DNA of 64,000 nucleotides from Urechis unicinctus. Taxonomy: Eukaryota > Annelida > Polychaeta > Xenopneusta > Urechidae. The translations under genes and the position numbers were made by a program. Positions 12,318-51,600 of this stretch are shown one piece after another. The stretch covers positions 1 through 64,000 of the forward strand of contig JAXDRA010000340.1 of NCBI GenBank assembly GCA_034190875.2. The letters are read 5' to 3'. Numbering within the stretch: the stretch's first letter is position 1; each line of letters opens with the position of its first letter. The notes under the pieces are model-generated. The model searched no databases. It had not been told where the DNA came from and worked only from the letters and a program-made list of their open reading frames with translations.

Positions 12318-13870
12318 ATGCGTGCATATATATCCTTATACTCACGTAAAGGTGCCTTTTCGTGCGTGTACGTGCCTATAAGGACTTAAAATGTGCGTAT
12401 AAGTGCGTGTTCGTACTCGTGCGTATGTGTGCGTTAATTTCCGTATGCGTGCGAATACTTACATGTTTGTGCATCTAAATGCGTATTTGTTCGTATATTT
12501 GCATATATATACGTATGCGTACGTTTTTGTATGCGTGCGTTTATTTCCGTATGCGTGCAAATACTTACATGTTTGTGCATCTACATGCGTATTTGCTCGT
12601 ATATTTGCATATATGTACGTATGCGTACGTTTTTGTATGCGTGCGTTTATTTCCGTATGCTTGCAAAAACTTACATCTTTGTGCGTATTTATACGTATTA
12701 TTGCATATAGGTACCTATGCGTCCTTGTTTTGTGCATCTACATGCGTGCGGCTATTTCCGTATGCGTGCTAATACTTGCTTCTGCTTCTTCTTCGTATAT
12801 GTACGGATATTTCTGATTTGTACATACGTTTACGTGCGGATTTAACCGTATCGTACATACATATACGTGCGTATATATCCGTATACTTACGTATAGGTGC
12901 CTTTTCGTTCGTGTACGTTGCCTATACGGAATTAAATGTTGCGTATAAGTGCGTGTTCGTACTCGTGCGTATGCCGTGCGTTAATTTCCGTATGCGTGAG
13001 AATACTTACATGTTTGTGCATCTAAATGCGTATTTGTTCGTATATATTTGCATATATGTACGTATGCGTACTTTTTGTATGCGTGCGTTTATTTCCGTAT
13101 GCGTGCAAATACTTACATGTTTGTGCATCTACATGCGTATTTGCTCGTATATTTGCATATATGTACGTATGCGTACGTTTTTGTATGCGTGCGTTTATTT
13201 CCGTATGCGTGCAAAAACTTACATGTTTGTGCATTTACATGCGTATTTGTTCGTATTATTGCATATATGTAACCTATGCGTCCGTTTTTGTATGCGTGCG
13301 GCTATTTCCGTATGCGGTGCTAATACTTGCATACTAAATGCTTCTTCGTATATGTGCGGATATTTTCTGATTTGTACATACGACTTTACGTGCGGATTTA
13401 ACCGTATTGTGCATACTATGCGTGCATCTATATCCTTATACTCACGTAAAGGTGCCTTTTCGTGCGTGTACGTGCCTATACGGACTTAAATGTGCGTATA
13501 GTGCGTGTTCCGTACTCGTGCGTATGCGTGCGTTAATTTCCGTATGCGTGCGAATACTTACTTGTTTGTACATCTACAAACGTATATTGTTCGTATTATT
13601 TGCATATATGTACGTATGCGTACGTTTTTGTATGCGTGCGTTTTATTTCCGTATGCGTGCTAATACTTGCTTTTGTCGTATATGTCGCGGATATTTCTGA
13701 TTTGTACATACGTTTTACGTGCGGATTTAACCGTATTGGTACATACTATACGTGCGTATATATCCGTATACCTCACGTAAAGGTGCCTTTTCGTTCGTGT
13801 ACGCCTATACGGAATTACGTATGCTATAGTGCGTTTCGTACATCGTGCGTATGCGTGCGTTAATTTCCGT
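12318..13870 (+). repeat. Mostly clean array block
   Basis: Headers start at 12318 (C), 12863 (C'), 13418 (C arm joined to a C' 3' arm) and 13748 (C'). The first two units carry M1-type and M3-type modules between A and B. The block ends at the G run. Confidence 0.87.
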
Positions 13871-21200: not shown

Positions 21201-24149
21201 GCGAATACTTACTTGTTTGTACATCTACAAACGTATATGATCGTATATTTGCATATATGTACGTATGCGTACGTTTTTGTATGCGTGCGTTTATTTCCGT
21301 ATGCTTGCAAATACTTACATTTTTGTGCATCTACATGCGTATTTGCTCGTATATTTGCATATATGTACGTATGCGTACGTTTTTGTATGCGTGCGTTTAT
21401 TTCCGTATGCTTGCAAAAACTTACATCTTTGTGCGTATTTGTTCGTATTATTGCATATATGTACGAATGCGGACGTTTTTGTATGCGTGCGTTTATTTCC
21501 GTATGCGCGCAAATACTTGGTTCTTCGTTTATGTGCGGATATTTAGGTATTGCACATACGCATAAGTGCGGATTTAACAGCTTTGTACATACATATACGT
21601 GCGTATATATCTTTATGCTCATGTATAGGTGCTTTTCGTACGTGTACGTTGCCTATAATGACTTAAATGTGCGTATTATTGCATTTTGTAATCGTGCGTA
21701 TGCGTGCGTTAATTTCCGTATGCTTGCAAATACTTACATCTTTGTGCATCTACATGCGTTATGTTCGTATTATTGCATATATGTACGTATGCGTCCGTTT
21801 TTGTATGCGTGCGGTTATTTCCGTATGCGTGCTAATACTTTCTTCTTCGTATATGTGCGGATATTTCTGATTTGTACATACGTTTACGTGCGGATTTAAC
21901 CGTATTGTACATACATATACGTGCGTATATATCCGTATACTCACGTATAGGTGCCTTTTCGTGTGTGTACGTGCCTATAAGGACTTAAATGTGCGTATAA
22001 GTGCGTGTTCGTACTCGTGCGTATGCGTGCGTTAATTTCCGTATGCGTGCGAATACTTACTTGTTTGTGCAACTACATTGCGTATTTGTTCGTATATTTG
22101 CATATATGTACGTATGCGTACGTTTTTGTATGCGTGCGTTTTTTATTTCCGTATGCTTGCAAATACTTACATCTTAGTGCGTATTTTATTCTTATATTTG
22201 CATATATGTACGTATGCGTACGTTTTTGTATGCTTGCGTTTATTTCCGTATGCGTGCTAATAATTATATGTTTGTGCATTTACATGCGTATTTGTTCGTA
22301 TTATTGCATATATGTACCTATGCGACCGTTTTTGTATGCGTGCGGCTATTTCCGTAGGCGTGCTAATATACTTGCTTCTTCGTATATGTGCTGATATTTC
22401 TGATTTGTACATACGTTTTACGTGCGGATTTAACCGTATTGTGCATACGTATGCGTGCATATATATCCTTATACTCACGTAAAGGTGCCTTTTCGTGCGT
22501 GTACGTGCCTATAAGGACGTAAATGTGCGTATAAGTGCGTGTTCGTACTCGTGCGTATGCGTGCGTTAATTTCCGTATGCGTGCGAATACTTACTTGTTT
22601 GTACATCTACAAACGTATATGATCGTATATTTGCATATATGTACGTATGCGTACGTTTTTGTATGCGTGCGTTTATTTCCGTATGCGTGCTGATACTTTC
22701 TTTTTCGTATATGTGCGGATATTTCTGATTTGTACATACGTTTACGTGCGGATTTAACCGTATTGTGCATACGTATGCGTGCATATATATCCTTATACTT
22801 ACGTAAAGGTGCCTTTTCGTGCGTGTACGTGCCTATAAGGACTTAAATGTGCGTATAAGTGCGTGTTCGTACTCGTGCGTGTGCGTGCGTTAATTTCCGT
22901 TTGCGTGCGAATACTTACTTGTTTGTACATCTACAAACGTATATGATCGTATATATTTGCATATATGTACGTATGCGTACGTTTTTTGTATGCGTGCGTT
23001 TATTTCCGTATGCGTGCTAATACTTTCTTTTTCGTATATGTGAGGATATTTCTGATTTGTACAAACGTTTACGTGCGGATTTAACCGTATTGCGCATACG
23101 TAAGCGTGCATATATATCCTTATACTCACGTAAAGGTGCCTTTTCGTGCGTGTACGTGCCTATAAGGACTTAAATGTGCGTATAAGTGCGTGTTCGTACT
23201 CGTGCGTATGCGTGCGTTAATTTCCTTATGCGTGCGAATACTTACTTGTTTGTGCAACTACATGCGTATTTGTTCGTATATTTGCATATATGTACGTATG
23301 CGTACGTTTTTGTATGCGTGCGTTTATTTCCGTATGCTTGCAAATACTTACATCTTAGTGCGTATTTATTCTTATATTTGCATATATGTACGTATGCGTA
23401 CGTTTTTTGTATGCGTGCGTTTATTTCCGTATGCGTGCTAATAATTATATGTTTGTGCATTTACATGCGTATTTGTTCGTATTATTGCATATATGTACCT
23501 ATGCGTCCGTTTTTGTATGCGTGCGGCTATTTCCGTATAGGCGTGCTAATACTTGCTTCTTCGTATATGTGCTGATATTTCTGATTTGTACATACGTTTA
23601 CGTGCGGATTTAACCGTATTGTGCATACGTATGCGTGCATATATATCCTTATACTCACGTAAAGGTGCCTTTTCGTGCGTGTACGTGCCTATAAGGACGT
23701 AAATGTGCGTATAAGTGCGTGTTCGTACTCGTGCGTATGCGTGCGTTAATTTCCGTATGCGTGCGAATACTTACTTGTTTGTACATCTACAAACGTATAT
23801 GATCGTATATTTGCATATATGTACGTATGCGTACGTTTTTGTATGCGTGCGTTTATTTCCGTATGCGTGCTGATACTTTCTTTTTCGTATATGTGCGGAT
23901 ATTTCTGATTTGTACATACGTTTACGTGCGGATTTAACCGTATTGTGCATACGTATGCGTGCATATATATCCTTATACTTACGTAAAGGTGCCTTTTCGT
24001 GCGTGTACGTGCCTATAAGGACTTAAATGTGCGTATAAGTGCGTGTTCGTACTCGTGCGTATGCGTGCGTTAATTTCCGTATGCGTGCGAATACTTACTT
24101 GTTTGTACATCTACAAACGTATATGATCGTATATTTGCATATATGTACG
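18217..24149 (+). repeat. Clean array block upstream of the inversion
   Basis: Headers start at 18217, 19282, 19802, 20744, 21069, 21595 (C''), 21917 (C/C' hybrid), 22451, 22775, 23102, 23631 and 23955. Unit lengths are 1065, 520, 942, 325, 526, 322, 534, 324, 327, 529 and 324 bp. A small rearranged patch lies at 19510-19620. The block stops inside an A module at the inversion junction. Confidence 0.92.
24136..24149 (+). repeat. 14-bp direct repeat at the left edge of the inverted segment
   Basis: The sequence tgcatatatgtacg ends the forward array here and is repeated exactly at 26109-26122, where the forward array resumes. Taking out the inverted segment and one copy of the repeat restores an A module in perfect register. 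The same 14 bp occurs in most A and M modules, so the duplication shows that the two edges are in phase; it is not a unique target site. Confidence 0.9.
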
Positions 24150-24862
24150 ATGCACAAACATGTAAGTATTTGCACGCATACGGAAATAAACGCACGCATA
24201 CAAAAACGAACGCATACGTATATATATGCAAATATACGAACAAATACGCATGTAGATGCACAAACATGTATGTATTTGCACGCATAAGGAAATAAACGCA
24301 CACATACAAAAACGGACGCATAGGTACATATATGCAACTGTAAGAATAAATACGCACTAAGATGTAAGTATTTGCAAGCATACGGAAATAAACGCACGCA
24401 TACAAAAACGTACGCATACGTACATATATGCAAATATACCAAAAAATACGCATGTAGATGCACAAACATGTAAGTATTTGCACGCATACGGAAATAAACG
24501 CACGCATAAAAAAAGTACGCATACGTATATATATGCAAATATACGAACAAATACGCATGTAGATGCACAAACATGTAAGTATTCGCTCGCATACGGAAAT
24601 TAACACTCACATACGCACGAGTACGAACACGCACGTATACGCACATTTACGTCCTTATAGGCACGTACACGCACGAAAAGGCACCTTTACGTGAGTATAA
24701 GGATATATATGCACGCTTACGTATGCACAATACGGTTAAATCCGCACGTAAACGTTTGTACAAATCAGAAATATCCTCACATATACGAAAAAGAAAGTAT
24801 TAGCACGCATACGGAAATAAACGCACGCATACAAAAACGTACGCATACGTACATATATGCAA
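24150..24862 (-). repeat. Left arm of a 713-bp inverted repeat
   Basis: This arm is the reverse complement of 26109-26821. By eye I saw about four substitutions and at least one 1-base indel (7 against 8 bases in a T run). The arms share unusual features such as a caaatacatacatg start of one M1 module, ttcttacagttgc, and a cgttcg in place of cgtacg. The 1,246 bp between the arms is also array sequence in reverse orientation. Confidence 0.9.
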
Positions 24863-24939
24863 ATATACGATCATATACGTTTGTAGATGTACAAACAAGT
24901 AAGTATTCGCACGCAAACGGAAATTAACGCACGCACACG

Positions 24940-24941
24940 CA
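24940..24941 (-). other. Deletion junction inside the inverted segment
   Basis: Reading the minus strand, a B module stops after gtgctgatat and joins directly to gcgtgtgcgtgcg, the start of an A module. The rest of B and a whole C header are missing. Header spacing on the minus strand (25414 to 24718, 696 bp) is about 154 bp short of the 850 bp expected for a 526 + 324 pair. I saw no other clean copy with this junction. Confidence 0.85.
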
Positions 24942-26108
24942 TATCAGCACATATACGAAGAAGCAAGTATTAGCACGCCTACGGAAATAGCCGCACGCAT
25001 ACAAAAACGGACGCATAGGTACATATATGCAATAATACGAACAAATACGCATGTAAATGCACAAACATATAATTATTAGCACGCATACGGAAATAAACGC
25101 ACGCATACAAAAACGTACGCATACGTACATATATGCAAATATAAGAATAAATACGCACTAAGATGTAAGTATTTGCAAGCATACGGAAATAAACGCACGC
25201 ATACAAAAACGTACGCATACGTACATATATGCAAATATACGAACAAATACGCATGTAGTTGCACAAACAAGTAAGTATTCGCACGCATAAGGAAATTAAC
25301 GCACGCATACGCACGAGTACGAACACGCACTTATACGCACATTTAAGTCCTTATAGGCACGTACACACACGAAAAGGCACCTATACGTGAGTATACGGAT
25401 ATATACGCACGTATATGTATGTACAATACGGTTAAATCCGCACGTAAAACGTATGTACAAATCAGAAATATCCGCACATATACGAAGAAGCAAGTATTAG
25501 CACGCATACGGAAATAGCCGCACGCATACAAAAACGGACGCATACGTACATATATGCAATAATACGAACAAATACGCACAAAGATGTAAGTATTTGCAAG
25601 CATACGGAAATTAACGCACGCATACGCACGATTACAAAATGCAATAATACGCACATTTAAGTCATTATAGGCACGTACACGTACGAAAAGCACCTATACA
25701 TGAGCATAAAGATATATACGCACGTATACGTATGTACAAAGTTGTTAAATCCGCACTTATGCGTATGTGCAAATCAGAAATATCCTCACATATACGAAAA
25801 AGAAAGTATTAGCACGCATACGGAAATAACCGCACGCATACAAAAACGTACGCATACGTACATATATGCAAATATACGATCATATACGTTTGTAGATGTA
25901 CAAACAAGTAAGTATTCGCACGCAAACGGAAATTAACGCACGCACACGCACGAGTACGAACACGCACTTATACGCACATTTAAGTCCTTATAGGCACGTA
26001 CACGCACGAAAAGGCACCTTTACGTGAGTATAAGGATATATATGCACGCATACGTATGCACAATACGGTTAAATCCGCACGTAAACGTATGTACAAATCA
26101 GAAATATC

Positions 26109-26821
26109 TGCATATATGTACGTATGCGTACGTTTTTGTATGCGTGCGTTTATTTCCGTATGCGTGCTAATACTTTCTTTTTCGTATATGTGAGGATATT
26201 TCTGATTTGTACAAAAGTTTACGTGCGGATTTAACCGTATTGTGCATACGTAAGCGTGCATATATATCCTTATACTCACGTAAAGGTGCCTTTTCGTGCG
26301 TGTACGTGCCTATAAGGACATAAATGTGCGTATACGTGCGTGTTCGTACTCGTGCGTATGTGTGTGTTAATTTCCGTATGCGAGCGAATACTTACATGTT
26401 TGTGCATCTACATGCGTATTTGTTCTTATATTTGCATATATATACGTATGCGTACTTTTTTTTATGCGTGCGTTTATTTCCGTATGCGTGCAAATACTTA
26501 CATGTTTGTGCATCTACATGCGTATTTTTTGGTATATTTGCATATATGTACGTATGCGTACGTTTTTGTATGCGTGCGTTTATTTCCGTATGCTTGCAAA
26601 TACTTACATCTTAGTGCGTATTTATTCTTACAGTTGCATATATGTACCTATGCGTCCGTTTTTGTATGTGTGCGTTTATTTCCTTATGCGTGCAAATACA
26701 TACATGTTTGTGCATCTACATGCGTATTTGTTCGTATATTTGCATATATATACGTATGCGTTCGTTTTTGTATGCGTGCGTTTATTTCCGTATGCGTGCA
26801 AATACTTACATGTTTGTGCAT
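26109..26821 (+). repeat. Right arm of the 713-bp inverted repeat
   Basis: Forward partner of 24150-24862. It begins exactly at the right inversion junction and runs through A, B, C (header at 26252) and the first modules of a long-form unit. Homology with the left arm ends where the left junction cuts off that arm. Its first 14 bp are the direct repeat shared with 24136-24149. Confidence 0.9.
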
Positions 26822-27396
26822 CTACATGCGTATTTTTTGGTATATTTGCATATATGTACGTATGCGTACGTTTTTGTATGCGTGCGTTTATTTCCGTATG
26901 CTTGCAAATACTTACATGTTTGTGCATCTACATGCGTATTTGCTCGTATATTTGCATATATGTACGTATGCGTCCGTTTTTGTATGCGTGCGTTTATTTC
27001 CGTATGCTTGCAAAAACTTAAATCTTTGTGCGTATTTGTTCGTATTATTATTGCATATATGTACGTATGCGTACGTTTTTGTATGCGTGCGTTTATTTCC
27101 GTATGCGTGCAAATACTTACATGTTTGTGCATCTACATGCGTATTTGCTCGTATATTTGCATATATGTACGTATGCGTACGTTTTTGTATGCGTGCGTTT
27201 ATTTCCGTATGCTTGCAAAAACTTACATCTTTGTGCGTATTTGTTCGTATTATTGCATATATGTACCTATGCGTCCGTTTTTGTATGCGTGCGGCTATTT
27301 CCGTATGCGTGCTAATACATGCTTCTTCGTATATGTGCCGTTATTTCTGATTTGTACATACGTTTACGTGCGGATTTAATCGTATTGTGCATACGT
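26252..27396 (+). repeat. Long-form unit, 1,145 bp
   Basis: Header C (aagcg form), then an A module with the gcgagcgaatactt tag, then a series of M modules including ggtatatttg forms, one M2 with ttcttacagttgc, one with a gtgtgcgtttatttcctta start, several gctcg forms and M3, closing with B carrying gccgttatt. The same order recurs at 35262-36414 (1,153 bp). Shortened versions are at 18217, 31788, 37061, 38336, 48929, 55638 and 61186. Confidence 0.88.
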
Positions 27397-29299
27397 ATGC
27401 GTGCATATATATCCTTATACTCACGTAAAGGTGCCTTTTCGTGCGTGTACGTGCCTATAAGGACGTAAATGTGCGTATAAGTGCGTGTTCGTACTCGTGC
27501 GTATGCTTGCGTTAATTTCCGTATGCGTGCGAATACTTACTTGTTTGTACATCTACATACGTATATGATCGTATATTTGCATATATGTACGTATGCGTAC
27601 GTTTTTGTATGCGTGCGTTTATTTCCGTATGCGTGCTGATACTTGCTTCTTCGTATATGTGCGGATATTTCTGATTTGTACATACGTTTACGTGCGGATT
27701 TAACCGTATTGTACATACATATACGTGCGTATATATCCGTATACTCACGTATAGGTGCCTTTTCGTGTGTGTACGTGCCTATAAGGACTTAAATGTGCGT
27801 ATAAGTGCGTGTTCGTACTCGTGCGTATGCGTGCGTTAATTTCCTTATGCGTGCGAATACTTACTTGTTTGTGCAACTACATGCGTATTTGTTCGTATAT
27901 TTGCATATATGTACGTATGCGTACGTTTTTTTGTATGCGTGCGTTTATTTCCGTATGCTTGCAAATACTTACATCTTAGTGCGTATTTATTCTTATATTT
28001 GCATATATGTACGTATGCGTACGTTTTTGTATGCTTGCGTTTTATTTCCGTATGCGTGCTAATAATTATATGTTTGTGCATTTACATGCGTATTTGTTCG
28101 TATTATTGCATATATGTACCTATGCGTCCGTTTTTGTATGCGTGCGGCTATTTCCGTAGGCGTGCTAATACTTGCTTCTTCGTATATGTGCTGATATTTC
28201 TGATTTGTACATACGTTTACGTGCGGATTTAACCGTATTGTGCATACGTATGCGTGCATATATATCCTTATACTCTCACGTAAAGGTGCCTTTTCGTGCG
28301 TGTACGTGCCTATAAGGACGTAAATGTGCGTATAAGTGCGTGTTCGTACTCGTGCGTATGCGTGCGTTAATTTCCGTATGCGTGCGAATACTTACTTGTT
28401 TGTACATCTACAAACGTATATGATCGTATATTTGCATATATGTACGTATGCGTACGTTTTTTTGTATGCGTGCGTTTATTTCCGTATGCGTGCTGATACT
28501 TTCTTTTTCGTATATGTGCGGATATTTCTGATTTGTACATACGTTTACGTGCGGATTTAACCGTATTGTGCATACGTATGCGCGTGCATATATATATCCT
28601 TATACTTACGTAAGGTGCCTTTTCGTGCGTGTACGTGCCTATAAGGACTTAAATGTGCGTATAAGTGCGTGTTCGTACTCGTGCGTGTGCGTGCGTTATT
28701 TCCGTTTTTGCGTGCGAATACTTACTTGTTTGTACATCTACAAACGTATATGATCGTATATTTGCATATATGTACGTATGCGTACGTTTTTGTATGCGTG
28801 CGTTTATTTCCGTATGCGTGCTAATACTTTCTTTTTCGTATATGTGACGGATATTTCTGATTTGTACAAACGTTTTACGTGCGGATTTAACCGTATTGTG
28901 TGCATACGTAAGCGTATATGTGATATATATCCTTATACTCACGTAAAGGTGCCGTTTCGTGCGTGCGTGCATGCCTATAAGGACACGTTAAATGTGCGTA
29001 TAAGGTGCGTGTTCGTACTGCGTTCGTGCGTATGCGTGCGTTAATTTCCGTATGCGTGCGAATACTTACATGTTTGTGCATCTACATGCGTATTTGTTCG
29101 TATATTTGCATATATATACGTATGCGTACGTTTTTTTATGCGTGCGTTTATTTCCGTATGCTTGCAAATACTTACATGTTTGTGCATCTACATGCGTATT
29201 TTTGGTATATTTGCATATATGTACGTATGCGTACGTTTTTGTATGCGTGCGTTTATTTCCGTATGCTTGCAAATACTTACATCTTAGTGCGTATTTATT
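27397..29299 (+). repeat. Clean array block after the inversion
   Basis: Headers at 27397, 27721 (hybrid C'), 28250, 28578 and 28910 give spacings of 324, 529, 328 and 332 bp, ending in a shortened long-form unit. Small T-run length changes appear, for example at 27926 and 28458. Confidence 0.9.
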
Positions 29300-30085
29300 C
29301 TTACAGTTGCATATATGTACCTATGCGTTTTTGTATGTTGCGTTTATTTCCTTATGCGTGCAAATACATATGTTTGTGCATCTACATGCGTATTTGTTCG
29401 TATATTTTGCATATATTGTATGCGCGTTTTTTGTATGCGTGCGTTTATTTCGGTATGCGTGCAAATACTTTACATGTTTATGCATCTACATGCGTATTTT
29501 TTGGTATATTTGCATATATGTACGTATGCGTACGTTTTTGTATGCGTGCGTTTATTTCGTATGCTTTTGTACTACATACGTATTTTTATATTTGTATGTA
29601 CGTATGCGTCCGTTTTTTTTTATGCGTGCGTATTGTGCATACGTATGCGTGCATATATATCGTTTTATACTCACGTAAATTGCCGTTTGCGTGTACGTGT
29701 GCATATAAGGATTTGCTCGTATTTATAATGTGCGTATATGCGTGCGTTTATTGCGTGTTGCAAAAACTTCGTGTGCGTATTTGTTCGTATTATTGCATAT
29801 ATGCCTATGCGTCCGTTTAATTTCCGTATGCGTGCGCCGTTATTACTTACTAATGTTTGTACGTATGCGTGCATATATCTACTCACGTAAAGGTGCCTTT
29901 TACGTATATGTGCGTGTTCGTCGTATATTTGCATATATGTTTGTACATCTACGTATTGCGTTTTTTTTGTATGCGTGCGTTTATTTCCGTATGCGTGCTG
30001 ATACTTTCTTTTTCGTATATGTGCGGATTTCTGATTTGTACATACGTTTTTTACGTGCGGATTTTTAACCGTATTGTGCATACGT
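29300..30085 (+). repeat. Disturbed island in the array
   Basis: The long-form unit that starts at 28910 loses register after about 29310. Headers at 29645 and 29865 are damaged and only 220 bp apart. Module fragments joined out of order are frequent from 29560 to 29980. A normal header returns at 30086. Confidence 0.82.
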
Positions 30086-31023: not shown

Positions 31024-33144
31024 ATGCGTGCGGCTATTTCCGTATGCGTGCTAATACTTGCTTCTTCGTATATGTGCGGATATTTCTGATTTGTACATAC
31101 GTTTACGTGCGGATTTAACCGTATTGTACATACATATACGCGTGTATATATCCGTATACTTACGTATAGGTGCCTTTTCGTTCGTGATCGTTCCTATACG
31201 GAATTAAATGTGCACATAAGTGCGTGTTCGTACTCGTGCGTATGCGTGCGTTAATTTCCGTATGCGTGAGAATACTTACTTGTTTGTACATCTACATACG
31301 TATATGATCGTATATTTGCATATATGTACGTATGCGTACGTTTTTGTATGCGTGCGTTTATTTCCGTATGCGCAAATAATACTTGGTTCTTCGTTTATGT
31401 GCGGATATTTAGGTATTTGCACATACGCATAAGTGCGGATTTAACAGCTTTGTACATACGTATACGTGCGTATATATCTTTATGCTCATGTATAGGTGCT
31501 TTTCGTACGTGTACGTGCCTATAATGACTTAAATGTGCGTATTATTGCATTTTGTAATCGTGCGTATGCGTGCGTTAATTTCCGTATGCTTGCAAATACT
31601 TACATGTTTTTGTGCATGCGTTTGTTCGTATTATTGCATATATGTACGTATGCGTCCGTTTTTGTATGCGTGCGGCTATTTCCGTATGCGTGCTAATACT
31701 TGCTTCTTCGCATATGTGAGGATATTTCTGATTTGTACATACGTTTACGTGCGGATTTAACCGTATTGTGCATACGTAAGCGTGCATATATATCCTTATA
31801 CTCACGTAAAGGTGCCTTTTCGTGCGTGTACGTGCCTATAAGGACTTAAATGTGCGTATACGTGCGTGTTCGTACTCGTGCGTATGTGTGCGTTAATTTC
31901 CGTATGCGAGCGAATACTTACATGTTTGTGCATCTACATGCGTATTTGTTCGTATATTTGCATATATATACGTATGCGTACGTTTTTTTATGCGTGCGTT
32001 TATTTCCGTATGCGTGCAAATACTTACATGTTTGTGCATCTACATGCGTATTTTTTGGTATATTTGCATATATGTACGTATGCGTACGTTTTTGTATGCG
32101 TGCGTTTATTTCCGTATGCTTGCAAATACTTACATCTTAGTGCGTATTTATTCTTACAGTTGCATATATGTACCTATGCGTCCGTTTTTGTATGTGTGCG
32201 TTTATTTCCTTATGCGTGCAAATACTTACATGTTTGTGCATCTACATGCGTATTTGTTCGTATATTTGCATATATGTACGTATGCGTTCGTTTTTGTATG
32301 CGTGCGTTTATTTCCGTATGCGTGCAAATACTTACATGTTTGTGCATCTACATGCGTATTTTTTGGTATATTTGCATATATGTACGTATGCGTACGTTTT
32401 TGTATGCGTGCGTTTATTTCCGTATGCTTGCAAAAAACTTGTTTGTACATCTTTGTGCGTATTTGTTCGTATTATTGCATATATGTACCTATGCGTCCGT
32501 TTTTGTATGCGTGCGGCTATTTCCGTATGCGTGCTAATACTTGCTTCTTCGTATATGTGCCGATATTTCTGATTTGTACATACGTTTACGTGCGGATTTA
32601 ACCGTATTGTGCATACGTATGCGTGCATATATATCCTTATACTCACGTAAAGGTGCCTTTTCGTGCGTGTACGTGCCTATAAGGACTTAAATGTGCGTAT
32701 AAGTGCGTGTTCGTACTCGTGCGTATGCGTGCGTTAATTTCCGTATGCGTGCGAATACTTACTTGTTTGTACATCTACAAACGTATATGATCGTATATTT
32801 GCATATATGTACGTATGCGTACGTTTTTGTATGCGTGCGTTTATTTCCGTATGCGTGCAAATACTTACATGTTTGTGCATCTACATGCGTATTTGCTCGT
32901 ATATTTGCATATATGTACGTATGCGTACGTTTTTGTATGCGTGCGTTTATTTCCGTATGCTTGCAAAAACTTACATCTTTGTGCGTATTTGTTCGTATTA
33001 TTGCATATATGTACCTATGCGTCCGTTTTTGTATGCGTGCGTTTATTTCCGTATGCGTGCTAATACTTTCTTTTTCGTATATGTGCGGATATTTCTGATT
33101 TGTACATACGTTTACGTGCGGATTTAACCGTATTGTGCATACGT

Positions 33145-44200: not shown

Positions 44201-45135
44201 TTCCGTATGCGTGCAAATACTTGGTTTTTCGTTTATGTGCGGATATTTTGTATTTGTATACATACGCATAAGTGCGGATTTAACAGCTTTGTACATACGT
44301 ATACGTGCGTATATTTCCTTATGCTCACGTAAAGGTGCTTTTCGTATACGTGCTATAATGACTTAAATGTATAGCGTGCATTTTCGTTCGTGCGTATGCG
44401 TGCGTTATTTCCGTATGCGTGCGAATGCTAACTTCTTGTGTGCACCTACATGCGTATTTGTTCGTATATTTGCATTTATGTACGTATGCGTACGTTTTTG
44501 TATGCGTGCGTTTATTTCCGTATTGCGTGCTAATACTTTCTTCTGCGTATATGTGCGTATATTTCTGATTTGTACATACGTTTATTGCGGATTTGCGTAT
44601 TGTGCATACGTATGCGTGCATATATGTATGCGTACGTGCGTTTGCCTTTTCCGTGTACGTGCCTATAAGGACTTAAATGTGCGTATAAGTGCGTGTTCGT
44701 ATCGTTTTGTATGCGTGCGTTAATTTCCGTATGCGTGCGAATACTTACTTTTTGTGCATCTACATGCGTATTTGTTCGTATATTTGCATATATGTACGTA
44801 TGCGTACGTTTTTGTATGCGTGCGTTTATTTCCGTATGCTCACGTAGGTGCATGTTTCGTGCATGTACGTGCGTATTTGGACGTATATTTGCATATATGT
44901 ACGTATGCGTACGTTTTTGTATGCGTGCGTTTATTTCCGTATGCGTGCGAATAAACTTGTTTGTACATCTTGTGCGTATTTGTTCGTATTATTTGCATAT
45001 ATGTACGTATGCGTACGTTTTTGTATGCGTGCGTTTATTTCCGTATGCGTGCTAATACTTTCTTTTCGTATATGTGCGGATATTTCTGATTTGTACATAC
45101 GTTTACGTGCGGATTTAACCGTATTGTGCATACGT
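41237..45135 (+). repeat. Mosaic array block with disturbed islands
   Basis: Clean headers at 41866, 42787, 43439, 43976 (hybrid), 44301 (C'') and 45136 alternate with damaged ones near 42205, 43116 and 44612. Islands of scrambled module words lie at about 41240-41470, 42100-42540, 43040-43160 and 44340-44900. No gene is visible. Confidence 0.85.
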
Positions 45136-46899: not shown

Positions 46900-47965
46900 A
46901 TGCGTGCATATATATCCTTATACTCACGTAAAGGTGCCTTTTCGTGCGTGTACGTGCCTATAAGGACTTAAATGTGCGTATAAGTGCGTGTTCGTACTCG
47001 TGCGTATGCGTGCGTTAATTTCCTTATGCGTGCGAATACTTACTTGTTTGTGCAACTACATGCGTATTTGTTCGTATATTTGCATATATGTACGTATGCG
47101 TACGTTTTTGTATGCGTGCGTTTATTTCCGTATGCTTGCAAATACTTACATCTTAGTGCGTATTTATTCTTATATTTGCATATATGTACGTATGCGTACG
47201 TTTTTGTATGCTTGCGTTTATTTCCGTATGCGTGCTAATAATTATATGTTTGTGCATTTACATGCGTATTTGTTCGTATTATTGCATATATGTACCTATG
47301 CGTCCGTTTTTGTATGCGTGCGGCTATTTCCGTAGGCGTGCTAATAATACTTGCTTCTTCGTATATGTGCTGATATTTCTGATTTGTACATACGTTTACG
47401 TGCGGATTTAACCGTATTGTGCATACGTATGCGTGCATATATATCCTTATACTCACGTAAAGGTGCCTTTTTCGTGCGTGTACGTGCCTATAAGGACGTA
47501 AATGTGCGTATAAGTGCGTGTTCGTACTCGTGCGTATGCGTGCGTTAATTTCCGTATGCGTGCGAATACTTACTTGTTTGTACATCTACAAACGTATATG
47601 ATCGTATATTTGCATATATGTACGTATGCGTACGTTTTTGTATGCGTGCGTTTATTTCCGTATGCGTGCTGATACTTTCTTTTTCGTATATGTGCGGATA
47701 TTTCTGATTTGTACATACGTTTACGTGCGGATTTAACCGTATTGTGCATACGTATGCGTGCATATATATCCTTATACTCACGTAAAGGTGCCTTTTCGTG
47801 CGTGTACGTGCCTATAAGGACTTAAATGTGCGTATAAGTGCGTGTTCGTACTCGTGCGTGTGCGTGCGTTAATTTCCGTTTGCGTGCGAATACTTACTTG
47901 TTTGTACATCTACAAACGTATATGATCGTATATTTGCATATATGTACGTATGCGTACGTTTTTGT

Positions 47966-48061
47966 ATGCGTGCGTTTATTTCCGTATGCTTGCAAATACT
48001 TACATCTTAGTGCGTATTTATTCTTATATTTGCATATATGTACGTATGCGTACGTTTTTGT
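47966..48061 (+). repeat. Module M2, reference copy (96-bp expansion module)
   Basis: A 96-bp relative of M1 that lacks about 10 bp in the middle. It reads gcttgcaaatacttacatct then tagtgcgtatttattctta. It is typically followed by M4, as here, so M2+M4 behaves as a fixed pair of 202 bp. In the long-form units the segment ttcttacagttgc or ttcttaaatttgc replaces ttcttatatttgc. Confidence 0.9.
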
Positions 48062-48167
48062 ATGCTTGCGTTTATTTCCGTATGCGTGCTAATAATTATA
48101 TGTTTGTGCATTTACATGCGTATTTGTTCGTATTATTGCATATATGTACCTATGCGTCCGTTTTTGT
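48062..48167 (+). repeat. Module M4, reference copy (106-bp expansion module)
   Basis: This module opens with atgcttgcgtttatttcc and carries gctaataattatatgtttg, then gcatttacatgcgtatttg, then tattattgcatatatgtacc and tatgcgtccg. It is followed by a B module with the ggctatttcc start. Copies are at about 9300, 20530, 22230, 28030, 35045, 47215, 51235, 53690, 56350, 56990, 57845, 59125 and 61945. Confidence 0.88.
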
Positions 48168-48603
48168 ATGCGTGCGGCTATTTCCGTAGGCGTGCTAATA
48201 CTTGCTTCTTCGTATATGTGCTGATATTTCTGATTTGTACATACGTTTACGTGCGGATTTAACCGTATTGTGCATACGTATGCGTGCATATATATCCTTA
48301 TACTCACGTAAAGGTGCCTTTTCGTGCGTGTACGTGCCTATAAGGACGTAAATGTGCGTATAAGTGCGTGTTCGTACTCGTGCGTATGCGTGCGTTAATT
48401 TCCGTATGCGTGCGAATACTTACTTGTTTGTACATCTACAAACGTATATGATCGTATATTTGCATATATGTACGTATGCGTACGTTTTTGTATGCGTGCG
48501 TTTATTTCCGTATGCGTGCTGATACTTTCTTTTTCGTATATGTGCGGATATTTCTGATTTGTACATACGTTTACGTGCGGATTTAACCGTATTGTGCATA
48601 CGT

Positions 48604-51600
48604 ATGCGTGCATATATATCCTTATACTCACGTAAAGGTGCCTTTTCGTGCGTGTACGTGCCTATAAGGACTTAAATGTGCGTATAAGTGCGTGTTCGTA
48701 CTCGTGCGTGTGCGTGCGTTAATTTCCGTTTGCGTGCGAATACTTACTTGTTTGTACATCTACAAACGTATATGATCGTATATTTGCATATATGTACGTA
48801 TGCGTACGTTTTTGTATGCGTGCGTTTATTTCCGTATGCGTGCTAATACTTTCTTTTTTCGTATATGTGAGGATATTTCTGATTTGTACATACGTTTACG
48901 TGCGGATTTAACCGTATTGTGCATACGTAAGCGTGCATATATATCCTTATACTCACGTAAAGGTGCCTTTTCGTGCGTGTACGTGCCTATAAGGACTTAA
49001 ATGTGCGTATACGTGCGTGTTCGTACTCGTGCGTATGTGTGCGTTAATTTCCGTATGCGAGCGAATACTTACATGTTTGTGCATCTACATGCGTATTTGT
49101 TCGTATATTTGCATATATATACGTATGCGTACTTTTTTTGTATGCGTGCGTTTATTTCCGTATGCGTGCAAATACTTACATGTTTGTGCATCTACATGCG
49201 TATTTTTTGGTATATTTGCATATATGTACGTATGCGTACGTATGTATGCGTTTTTGTATGCGTGCGTTTATTTCCGTATGCTTGCAAATACTTACATCTT
49301 AGTGCGTATTTATTCGTAAATTTGCATATATGTACCTATGCGTCCGTTTTTGTATGTGCGTTTATTTCCGTATGCGTGCGTGCAAATACTTACATGTTTG
49401 TGCATCTACATGCGTATTTGTTCGTATATTTGCATATATATACGTGTGCGTACGTTTTTTTGTATGCGTGCGTTTATTTCCGTATGCGTGCAAATACTTA
49501 CATGTTTGTGCATCTACATGCGTATTTTTTGGTATATTTGCATATATGTACGTATGCGTACGTTTTTGTATGCGTGCGGTTATTTCCGTATGCTTGCAAA
49601 TACTTACATGTTTGTGCATCTACATGCGTATTTGCTCGTATATTTGCATATATGTACGTATGCGTACGTTTTTGTATGCGTGCGTTATTTCCGTATGCGT
49701 GCAAATACTTACATGTTTGTGCGTATATTGTTCGTATTATTTGCATATATGTACGTATGCGTACGTGCGCGTTGTATGTCCGTGCGTTTATTTCCGTATG
49801 CGTGCTAATACTTACTAATACTTTTTTTCGTATATGTGCGGATATTTCTGATATTGTACATACGTTTTTTACGTGCGGATTTAACCGTATTGTGCATACG
49901 TATGCGTGCATATATATCATGTTACTCACGTAAAGGTGCCTTTTCGTGCGTGTACGTGCCTATAAGGACTTAAATGTGCGTATAAGTGCGTGTTCGTACT
50001 CGTGCGTATGCGTGCGTTAATTTCCGTATGCGTGCGAATACTTACATGTTTGTACATCTACATGCGTATTGATCGTATATTTGCATATATGTACGTATGC
50101 GTACGTTTTTGTATGCGTGCGTTTATTTCCGTATGCGTGCTAATACTTTCTTTTTCGTATATGTGCGGATATTTCTGATTTGTACATACGTTTACGTGCG
50201 GATTTAACCGTATTGTGCATACGTATGCGTGCATATATATCTTATACTCACGTAAAGGTGCCTTTTCGTGCGTGTACGTGCCTATAAGGACTTAAATGTG
50301 CGTATAAGTGCGTGTTCGTACTCGTGCGTATGCGTGCGTTAATTTCCGTATGCGTGCGAATACTTACATGTTTGTGCATCTACAATGCGTATATTGTTCG
50401 TATATTTGCATATATGTACGTATGCGTACGTTTTTGTATGCGTGCGTTTATTTCCGTATGCGTGCAAATAATACTTTTTTTTGCATCTACATGTGCGTAT
50501 TTTTCGTATATTTGCATATATGTACGTATGCGTACGTTTTTGTATGCGTGCGTTTATTTCCGTATGCGTGCATATAATACTTACATCGTTAGTGCGTTTT
50601 TTGCGTATATGTGCCTATTTGACATATATGTGCGTGCGTATGCGTGTTTTTTGTATGCGTGCGTTTATTTCCGTATGCGTGCAAATACTTACATGTTTGT
50701 GCATCTACATGCGTATTTGTCGTCGTATATTTGCATATATATGTACGTATGCGTACGTTTTTGTATGCGTGCGTTTATTTCCGTATGCGTGCAAATACTT
50801 ACATGTTTGTGCATCTACATGCGTATTTGTTCGTATATTTGCATATATGTACGTATGCGTACGTTTTTGTATGCGTGCGTTTATTTCCGTATGCGTGCAA
50901 ATACTTACATGTTTGTGCATCTACATGCGTATTTGTCGTATATTTGCATATATGTACGTATGCGTACGTTTTTGTATGCGTGCGTTTATTTCCGTATGCG
51001 TGCAAATACTTACACATTTTGCGTATTTGTTCGTATATTGCATATTGTACGTATGCGTATTTTTCGTTATTTCGTATTTGCATATATGCGTACGTGCGTA
51101 TATACGTATGCGTACGTTTTTGTATGCGTGCGTTTATTTCCGTATGCGTGCAAATACTTACATGTTTGTGCATGTACATGCGTATTTGCTCGTATATTTG
51201 CATATATGTACGTATGCGTACGTTTTTGTATGCTTGCGTTTATTTCCGTATGCGTGCTAATAATTATATGTTTGTGCATTTACATGCGTATTTGTTCGTA
51301 TTATTGCATATATGTACCTATGCGTCCGTTTTTGTATGCGTGCGGCTATTTCCGTATGCGTGCTAATACTTGCTTCTTCGTATATGTGCGGATATTTCTG
51401 ATTTGTACATACGTTTACGTGCGGATTTAACCGTATTGTGCATACGTATGCGTGCGTATATATCCTTATACTCACGTATAGGTGCCTTTTCGTTCGTGAT
51501 CGTTCCTATACGGAATTAAATGTGCGTATAAGTGCGTGTTCGTACTCGTGCGTATGCGTGCGTTAATTTCCGTATGCGTGCGAATACTTACTTGTTTGTA

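Follow-up and report, generated by a model that had tools for sequence, protein, structure and literature searches.

The window analysed here comprises 64,000 nucleotides of Urechis unicinctus DNA, namely positions 1-64000 of contig JAXDRA010000340.1 (hereafter C230; 73,717 bp) in an assembly of 1.19 Gb and 926 contigs (GCA_034190875.2). C230 looks like satellite from end to end in composition, k-mers and module anchors, and the direction of the array is reversed across 24150-26108, a segment of 1,959 bp. On its sequence, this segment is best described as an insertion rather than an in-place inversion. A copy of about 2 kb from another unit of the same satellite would have been inserted backwards into an intact unit at the 14-mer TGCATATATGTACG, with 14 target bases duplicated and no sequence lost. 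We consider it probable that this backward insertion arose by repair-mediated duplication, the event class proposed here: during repair of a staggered break, its ends would have been filled in, and either a piece of the array or a patch made by copying would have been joined in. The reversed insertion appears well resolved in the assembled sequence and ordinary in kind, and the chief doubt is a possible assembly artefact. The backward orientation of the insert lets a single insertion scar within a satellite be read base by base, which makes the target, its duplication, the type of source and the internal deletion separately recognisable.

Other contigs are referred to by the working names C12, C16 and C1, and L011 denotes a stretch of C12 in which L011:147-2582 corresponds to C12:49440147-49442582. 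The insert and its surroundings are composed as follows:

23436..24149, plus strand: left flank, one continuous array unit with 26123-26822, 99.1% identical to C12 (flank-join test)
24136..24149, plus strand: left copy of the 14-bp overlap, TGCATATATGTACG, A-module sequence (motif count, flank-join test)
24150..26108, minus strand: reversed insert, the reverse complement of a C12-type stretch (like C12:49440147-49442582) minus 479 bp
26109..26122, plus strand: right copy of the 14-bp overlap (motif count, flank-join test)
26123..26822, plus strand: right flank of the interrupted unit (flank-join test)

The satellite shows repeat periods of ~106 bp and ~324 bp in a mosaic, termed A and A+B modules. 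In the 73.7 kb of C230, 300-bp windows with more A than T start at 24001-25801 only, and reverse B-module anchors are confined to 24727-26060 (6 reverse versus 217 forward). Within the window, anchors of the A type number 333 forward and 10 reverse, and those of the B type 189 forward and 6 reverse. A preliminary description of the window had reported a lone reversed segment of 1,959 bp among about 130 units; composition windows and B-module anchors bear out the lone segment, while the unit count was not recovered as such from the A and B anchors. No second reversed block was found in the rest of C230, in the 27.6-kb satellite block of C12 or in the 8 kb of the C16 array that were compared (35.6 kb), and a lone reverse A-anchor hit at position 13596 of the C12 block is not accompanied by windows in which A exceeds T.

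The integrity of the target was assessed with a flank-join test, in which the insert and one copy of the 14-mer were deleted by script and the resulting join was compared with the remaining C230 sequence and with C12. The joined flanks (714 and 700 bp, 1,414 bp in all) align to C12 contiguously across the join, with 1,403 of 1,416 columns identical (99.08%). Among 200 random in-phase joins, at least 170 gave a spanning match; 23 reached 95% identity, 7 reached 97% and none reached 98.5%. For intact pieces of the same length (n = 207), spanning matches were found for at least 188, with 68 pieces at 95%, 38 at 97%, 10 at 98.5% and 5 at 99%. These searches kept the best 60 matches per query and sequence at a large word size, and weak spanning matches were possibly missed. 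A longer join (L1500|R1500) aligns over its full length to C12 at 95.6% and to 47301-49815 at 96.4% across 2,498 bp. Given this match of the joined flanks to an intact C12 unit, nothing is missing from the target unit, and the forward array restarts 14 bp behind the point at which it broke off. The flanks are thus continuous around the inserted copy, as in a repair-mediated duplication, and the earlier statement that the forward array resumes in phase holds at the unit level.

By its sequence, the 14-mer present at 24136-24149 and 26109-26122 may be read as doubled, like a target duplication. It is an A-module word found 190 times without mismatch in the window (184 plus, 6 minus), and its occurrence at both edges therefore reflects phase, not a special site. 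The direct repeat reported in the preliminary description is present, but it consists of ordinary module sequence, and a special 14-bp recognition site is rejected on the same count.

Turned forward, the insert is colinear with L011:147-2582: of 1,954 aligned bases 6 are mismatched, and the alignment has eight gaps of a single base and one of 479 bp, the latter corresponding to the missing L011:1310-1788. A third join, overlooked earlier, consequently lies inside the segment at 24941/24942 and separates two pieces, here named X2 and X1:

24150..24941, minus strand: insert piece X2, which holds the left arm of the inverted repeat and matches L011:1789-2582 (alignment to C12)
24932..24950, minus strand: internal join of X1 and X2, a 479-bp deletion relative to C12, whose 19-mer occurs once in the assembly at ≤ 1 mismatch (word search)
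24942..26108, minus strand: insert piece X1, which matches L011:147-1309 and is 99.4% identical to C12 and 93.8% to the local 22393-23578 (alignments)

X1 is matched at 99.4%, 99.1% and 97.6% by three C12 units, at 98.3% by a C16 unit and at 95.8% by the best unit of C230. Its phase-equivalent local counterpart in the left flank, 22393-23578, reaches 93.8%; nearby stretches match parts of X1 better (21434-22397 at 95.4% over 965 bp, and another at 96.9% over 749 bp). X2 matches three C12 units at 99.1-99.4%, and a 12-sequence alignment shows 7 column differences between X2 and the local flank, against 5, 7 and 8 for units C12_9857, C12_16488 and C12_7103, respectively. At sites 24936 and 24916, just beyond the arm, the insert departs from the local flank and has the allele found in three of five C12 units and in two other C230 units, and among the 12 aligned sequences no allele is common to insert and local flank alone. 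Of the 1,939 21-mers of the insert, all but 46 recur in C12 or in the forward sequence of C230 beyond the insert, so the insert is almost wholly array sequence. On sequence similarity, the donor is best described as a C12-type unit, which may lie in C12, C16, C230 or an unassembled stretch.

The joins themselves are rare words. The left-join 20-mer has one exact occurrence in the assembly and one other place at 1 mismatch, by our reading ordinary array on the reverse strand, and the right-join 24-mer has a single occurrence at ≤ 1 mismatch. The internal join probably arose with or after the insertion, as its 19-mer is unique at the same threshold. Microhomology amounts to 1 bp at the left join (24149 also pairs), 0 at the right join (where ATAT stands on both sides, one base off) and 1 bp at the internal join. 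Apart from the 14-bp overlap, which resembles a target site duplication (TSD), no filler is seen. Neither poly(A) nor poly(T) occurs at the left or right join, as would mark a LINE-type class 1 templated insertion, and a 14-bp overlap with no poly(A) is compatible with a staggered break that captured an array fragment or received a copy of one.

The preliminary description had further proposed that the left part of the insert was copied from its right neighbour, with which it forms an inverted repeat:

24150..24861, minus strand: left arm of the 713-bp inverted repeat (alignment within the window)
26109..26821, plus strand: right arm of the 713-bp inverted repeat, in the forward array (alignment within the window)

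The two arms are 99.3% identical (4 mismatches, 1 gap), and the outer 366 bp of the left arm are 100% complementary to the neighbour. Within the window, 26109-26821 was the best match of the left arm (second, 31634-32347 at 98.2%), and beyond the window C12 units equalled it at 99.3% each; the column differences are 5 from the neighbour and 5 from C12_9857. The likeness to the right neighbour therefore stands, but it is not specific, and the distant match is a tie rather than an improvement. Nor is the arm length of 713 bp informative, because the junctions set both of its ends: a reversed piece of a tandem array pairs with the flank up to the junction. For 713-bp pieces of C230 (n = 183), the median identity to the best-scoring match elsewhere is 96.1%, and that match lies within 3.5 kb in 19 cases; for such pieces of C12, it lies within 3.5 kb in 16 of 67. 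When random C12 pieces were reversed at the actual target (n = 100), an arm of ≥ 690 bp arose 68 times at ≥ 95% identity, 32 times at ≥ 98% and 9 times at ≥ 99%. With donor and target both drawn at random (n = 200), such arms appeared in 64, 18 and 13 cases at the same thresholds, but donors may overlap the target in that simulation, and the argument rests on the 100 C12 donors at the actual target. As a specific claim, copying from the right neighbour is rejected on the C12 tie, the non-local alleles beyond the arm, the 93.8% local identity of X1 and the 9 of 100 simulated arms at ≥ 99%. A read-through into the left flank was likewise rejected: the insert does cover that flank by unit phase, yet X1 is 93.8% identical to its local counterpart.

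A replication template switch is a possible but rather unlikely origin of the segment. The nascent strand would leave at 24149, use the opposite strand of a homologous unit as template over 2 kb, skipping once, and return 14 bp behind its point of departure; that unit would lie on the sister, on the homologue or in a shifted register. The source spans the target site in unit coordinates, with ~700 bp lying ahead of it and 1,735 bp on the other side, yet a 2.4-kb source usually does so by chance given a C12 unit spacing of ~2.75 kb (L011:402, 3154). A return point preceding the departure point is included in the four-point model as described in PMC7954356, and the identity of the outer 366 bp to the right neighbour is in keeping with such a switch; the joins with 0-1 bp microhomology speak against it. 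The 712-bp arm is 99.3% identical to local sequence, tied with C12, whereas for the remaining 1,168 bp the present local sequence (93.8%, versus 99.4% in C12) was not the template. The strand switch and return proposed in the preliminary description are hence compatible with the opposite polarity of the copy and with the 14-bp step back, but a local template is not specifically supported. For a simple inversion, in which a forward segment would have turned in place with a little sequence lost at each end and which we regard as highly improbable, it can be said that inversions within satellite arrays are known from the cases described in PMC11062924 and that the piece read forward is merely ~70 and ~25 bases off module phase at its ends. 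Re-inverted, the segment is out of phase with the flanks at its ends, as small end losses would allow, but flanks that already form one continuous 99.1% unit with a 14-bp overlap would then require a coincidence.

An assembly or library artefact, i.e. a chimeric read within an all-satellite contig, is unlikely. It would be in line with a C230 (73.7 kb) that appears to be satellite throughout and with three joins that are each single in the assembly. On general grounds, however, two near-blunt joins together with an internal join and an in-phase return would be an unusual mis-overlap where array units are so alike, and no return to the forward array would be expected from a simple fold-back read. 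Another reading, which we hold to be very improbable, is that satellite-derived DNA such as excised circles or repair patches re-enters the arrays in either direction at the alternating purine-pyrimidine TGCATATATGTACG with a short duplication. If true, this would be a recurring source of array growth and inverted blocks, with forward insertions nearly invisible.

Several observations weigh against repair-mediated duplication of a C12-type unit. A 28-mer that marks the left flank is confined to C230 within the assembly, with no second allele there, so that the empty site is deduced from paralogous units rather than observed in an allele. Because the overlap consists of a word so frequent in the modules, a template switch could yield the 14 bp as well, and the microhomology of 0-1 bp falls below the signature of 2-9 nt counted by Pace et al. 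(PMC2671141) at the breakpoints they describe. As to the source, no compared C12 unit is identical to the outer 366 bp that the insert shares with its right neighbour (the best differs at 1 column). Exact copies of the 26-mer with the ACAG variant stand in the insert, the neighbour, two more C230 units and three places in C16, and all five C12 matches listed have one mismatch to it; one further C12 unit carries the G of this variant next to a two-base indel. Moreover, several C12 units tie as donor, and the C16 comparison covered 8 kb.

Events of this kind are already known, both as inverted satellite blocks and as repair-mediated duplications; in the following, each study is cited for the cases it describes. 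In the repair-mediated duplications of Pace et al. 2009 (PMC2671141), a genomic copy likewise enters a copy of a repeat at a break, and one inverted and one chimeric case are described; here, by contrast, donor type and target belong to the same satellite. TSDs of 4-21 nt are given there, in 6 of 39 tail-free breakpoints with a donor within 5 kb and in 7 of 12 interchromosomal ones, and the maximal insert sizes are 619 bp (proximal class) and 3,424 bp (distant class), compared with 1,959 bp here. Four-point reverse-strand switching (PMC7954356) similarly makes a reverse-complement copy between nearby points and results in inverted repeats, but the events described are short-range, whereas the source here is kilobase-sized with a mostly non-local best match. 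Templated sequence insertion polymorphisms (TSIP; PMC5110952) share the insertion of templated sequence. As described there, class 1 carries a target duplication and class 2 end-joining features, and neither fits cleanly because a 14-bp duplication occurs here with no poly(A) at the joins.

A reversed block within a tandem array is also found in primate alpha-satellite (PMC11062924, PMC9859433), where few inversions are reported inside human higher-order repeat (HOR) units (PMC9859433); the example described with a size measures 3.2 Mb, unlike the 2 kb with a recognisable empty site seen here. The macro-dyad symmetries of Tribolium (PMC13081366) resemble the present case in their opposite-orientation satellite subarrays, hairpin potential and basic unit of ~110 bp. 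They are described as recurrent, several kb long and with conserved inversion sites, whereas here there is one 2-kb event with unique joins: one reversed piece in the 73.7 kb of C230 and none in the 27.6 kb of C12 or the 8 kb of C16. The scar is probably a by-product of DNA repair or replication, and no function of the inverted insert is indicated. It is an example of unit movement within or between arrays and, as one case in one assembly, says little on rates or function.

The inverted repeat and the hairpin potential are consequences of the insertion. A hairpin with a 1.2-kb loop had been proposed, and the inverted repeat for it is present, but other hairpins are available, including one across the right junction:

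25794..26117, minus strand: left arm of a hairpin with a shorter loop; its two arms measure 324 bp, pair at 91% and stand 68 nt apart (pairing and fold)
26186..26509, plus strand: right arm of the shorter-loop hairpin (pairing and fold)

Further local inverted pairs are 23732-24149 with 24524-24941 (95%) and 23889-24149 with 25857-26117 (98%, 261 nt). The DNA fold of 25780-26520, which contains the shorter-loop hairpin, is predicted at -335 kcal/mol, whereas 20 shuffled sequences average -105; so low an energy is expected of a long inverted repeat.

On C12, the satellite block measures 27,625 bp (49,434,687-49,462,311) and is flanked by two 100-N gaps; given a gap on each side, the chromosomal array is probably incomplete. 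C16 bears the satellite in minus orientation, with 11 variant hits from 59,238,258 to 59,281,392. C230 may be an unplaced part of the C12 or C16 array, and a search for end overlap between C230 and the C12 block gave none that was convincing. A transfer RNA (tRNA) search of the window found none, and an Rfam scan of the window at gathering thresholds returned 0 families, on which an RNA gene within the repeat was rejected. An array piece of 1,092 bp had no match among plasmids, and an exact 42-base array word was absent from the bacterial and archaeal genome contigs and the viral contigs searched.

Higher-order units of ~2.6-2.8 kb seem to be repeated in C230 (window 22650-29566 and 47301-49815) and in C12, and joined-flank matches at 27272, 47301 and 59544, plus two in L011 of C12, support them. 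Alternating pyrimidine-purine (YR) runs of ≥ 10 cover 43% of window bases, compared with 18-19% in three first-order Markov controls, and runs of ≥ 20 cover 13% compared with 1.4%. The longest run measures 41 bp (32-35 in the controls), with examples at 44601-44641 and 51079-51117, and alternation parity is in part preserved across hundreds of bases of satellite. This composition suggests a potential for Z-DNA or cruciforms, or an origin in a simple YR repeat. At C1:15940001-15980000 (L018-L021), the array word TGCATATATG occurs both ways, e.g. 29 forward and 11 reverse in L019, and TATGCGTGCG words are few; the C1 repeat is apparently a different or diverged repeat of mixed orientation.

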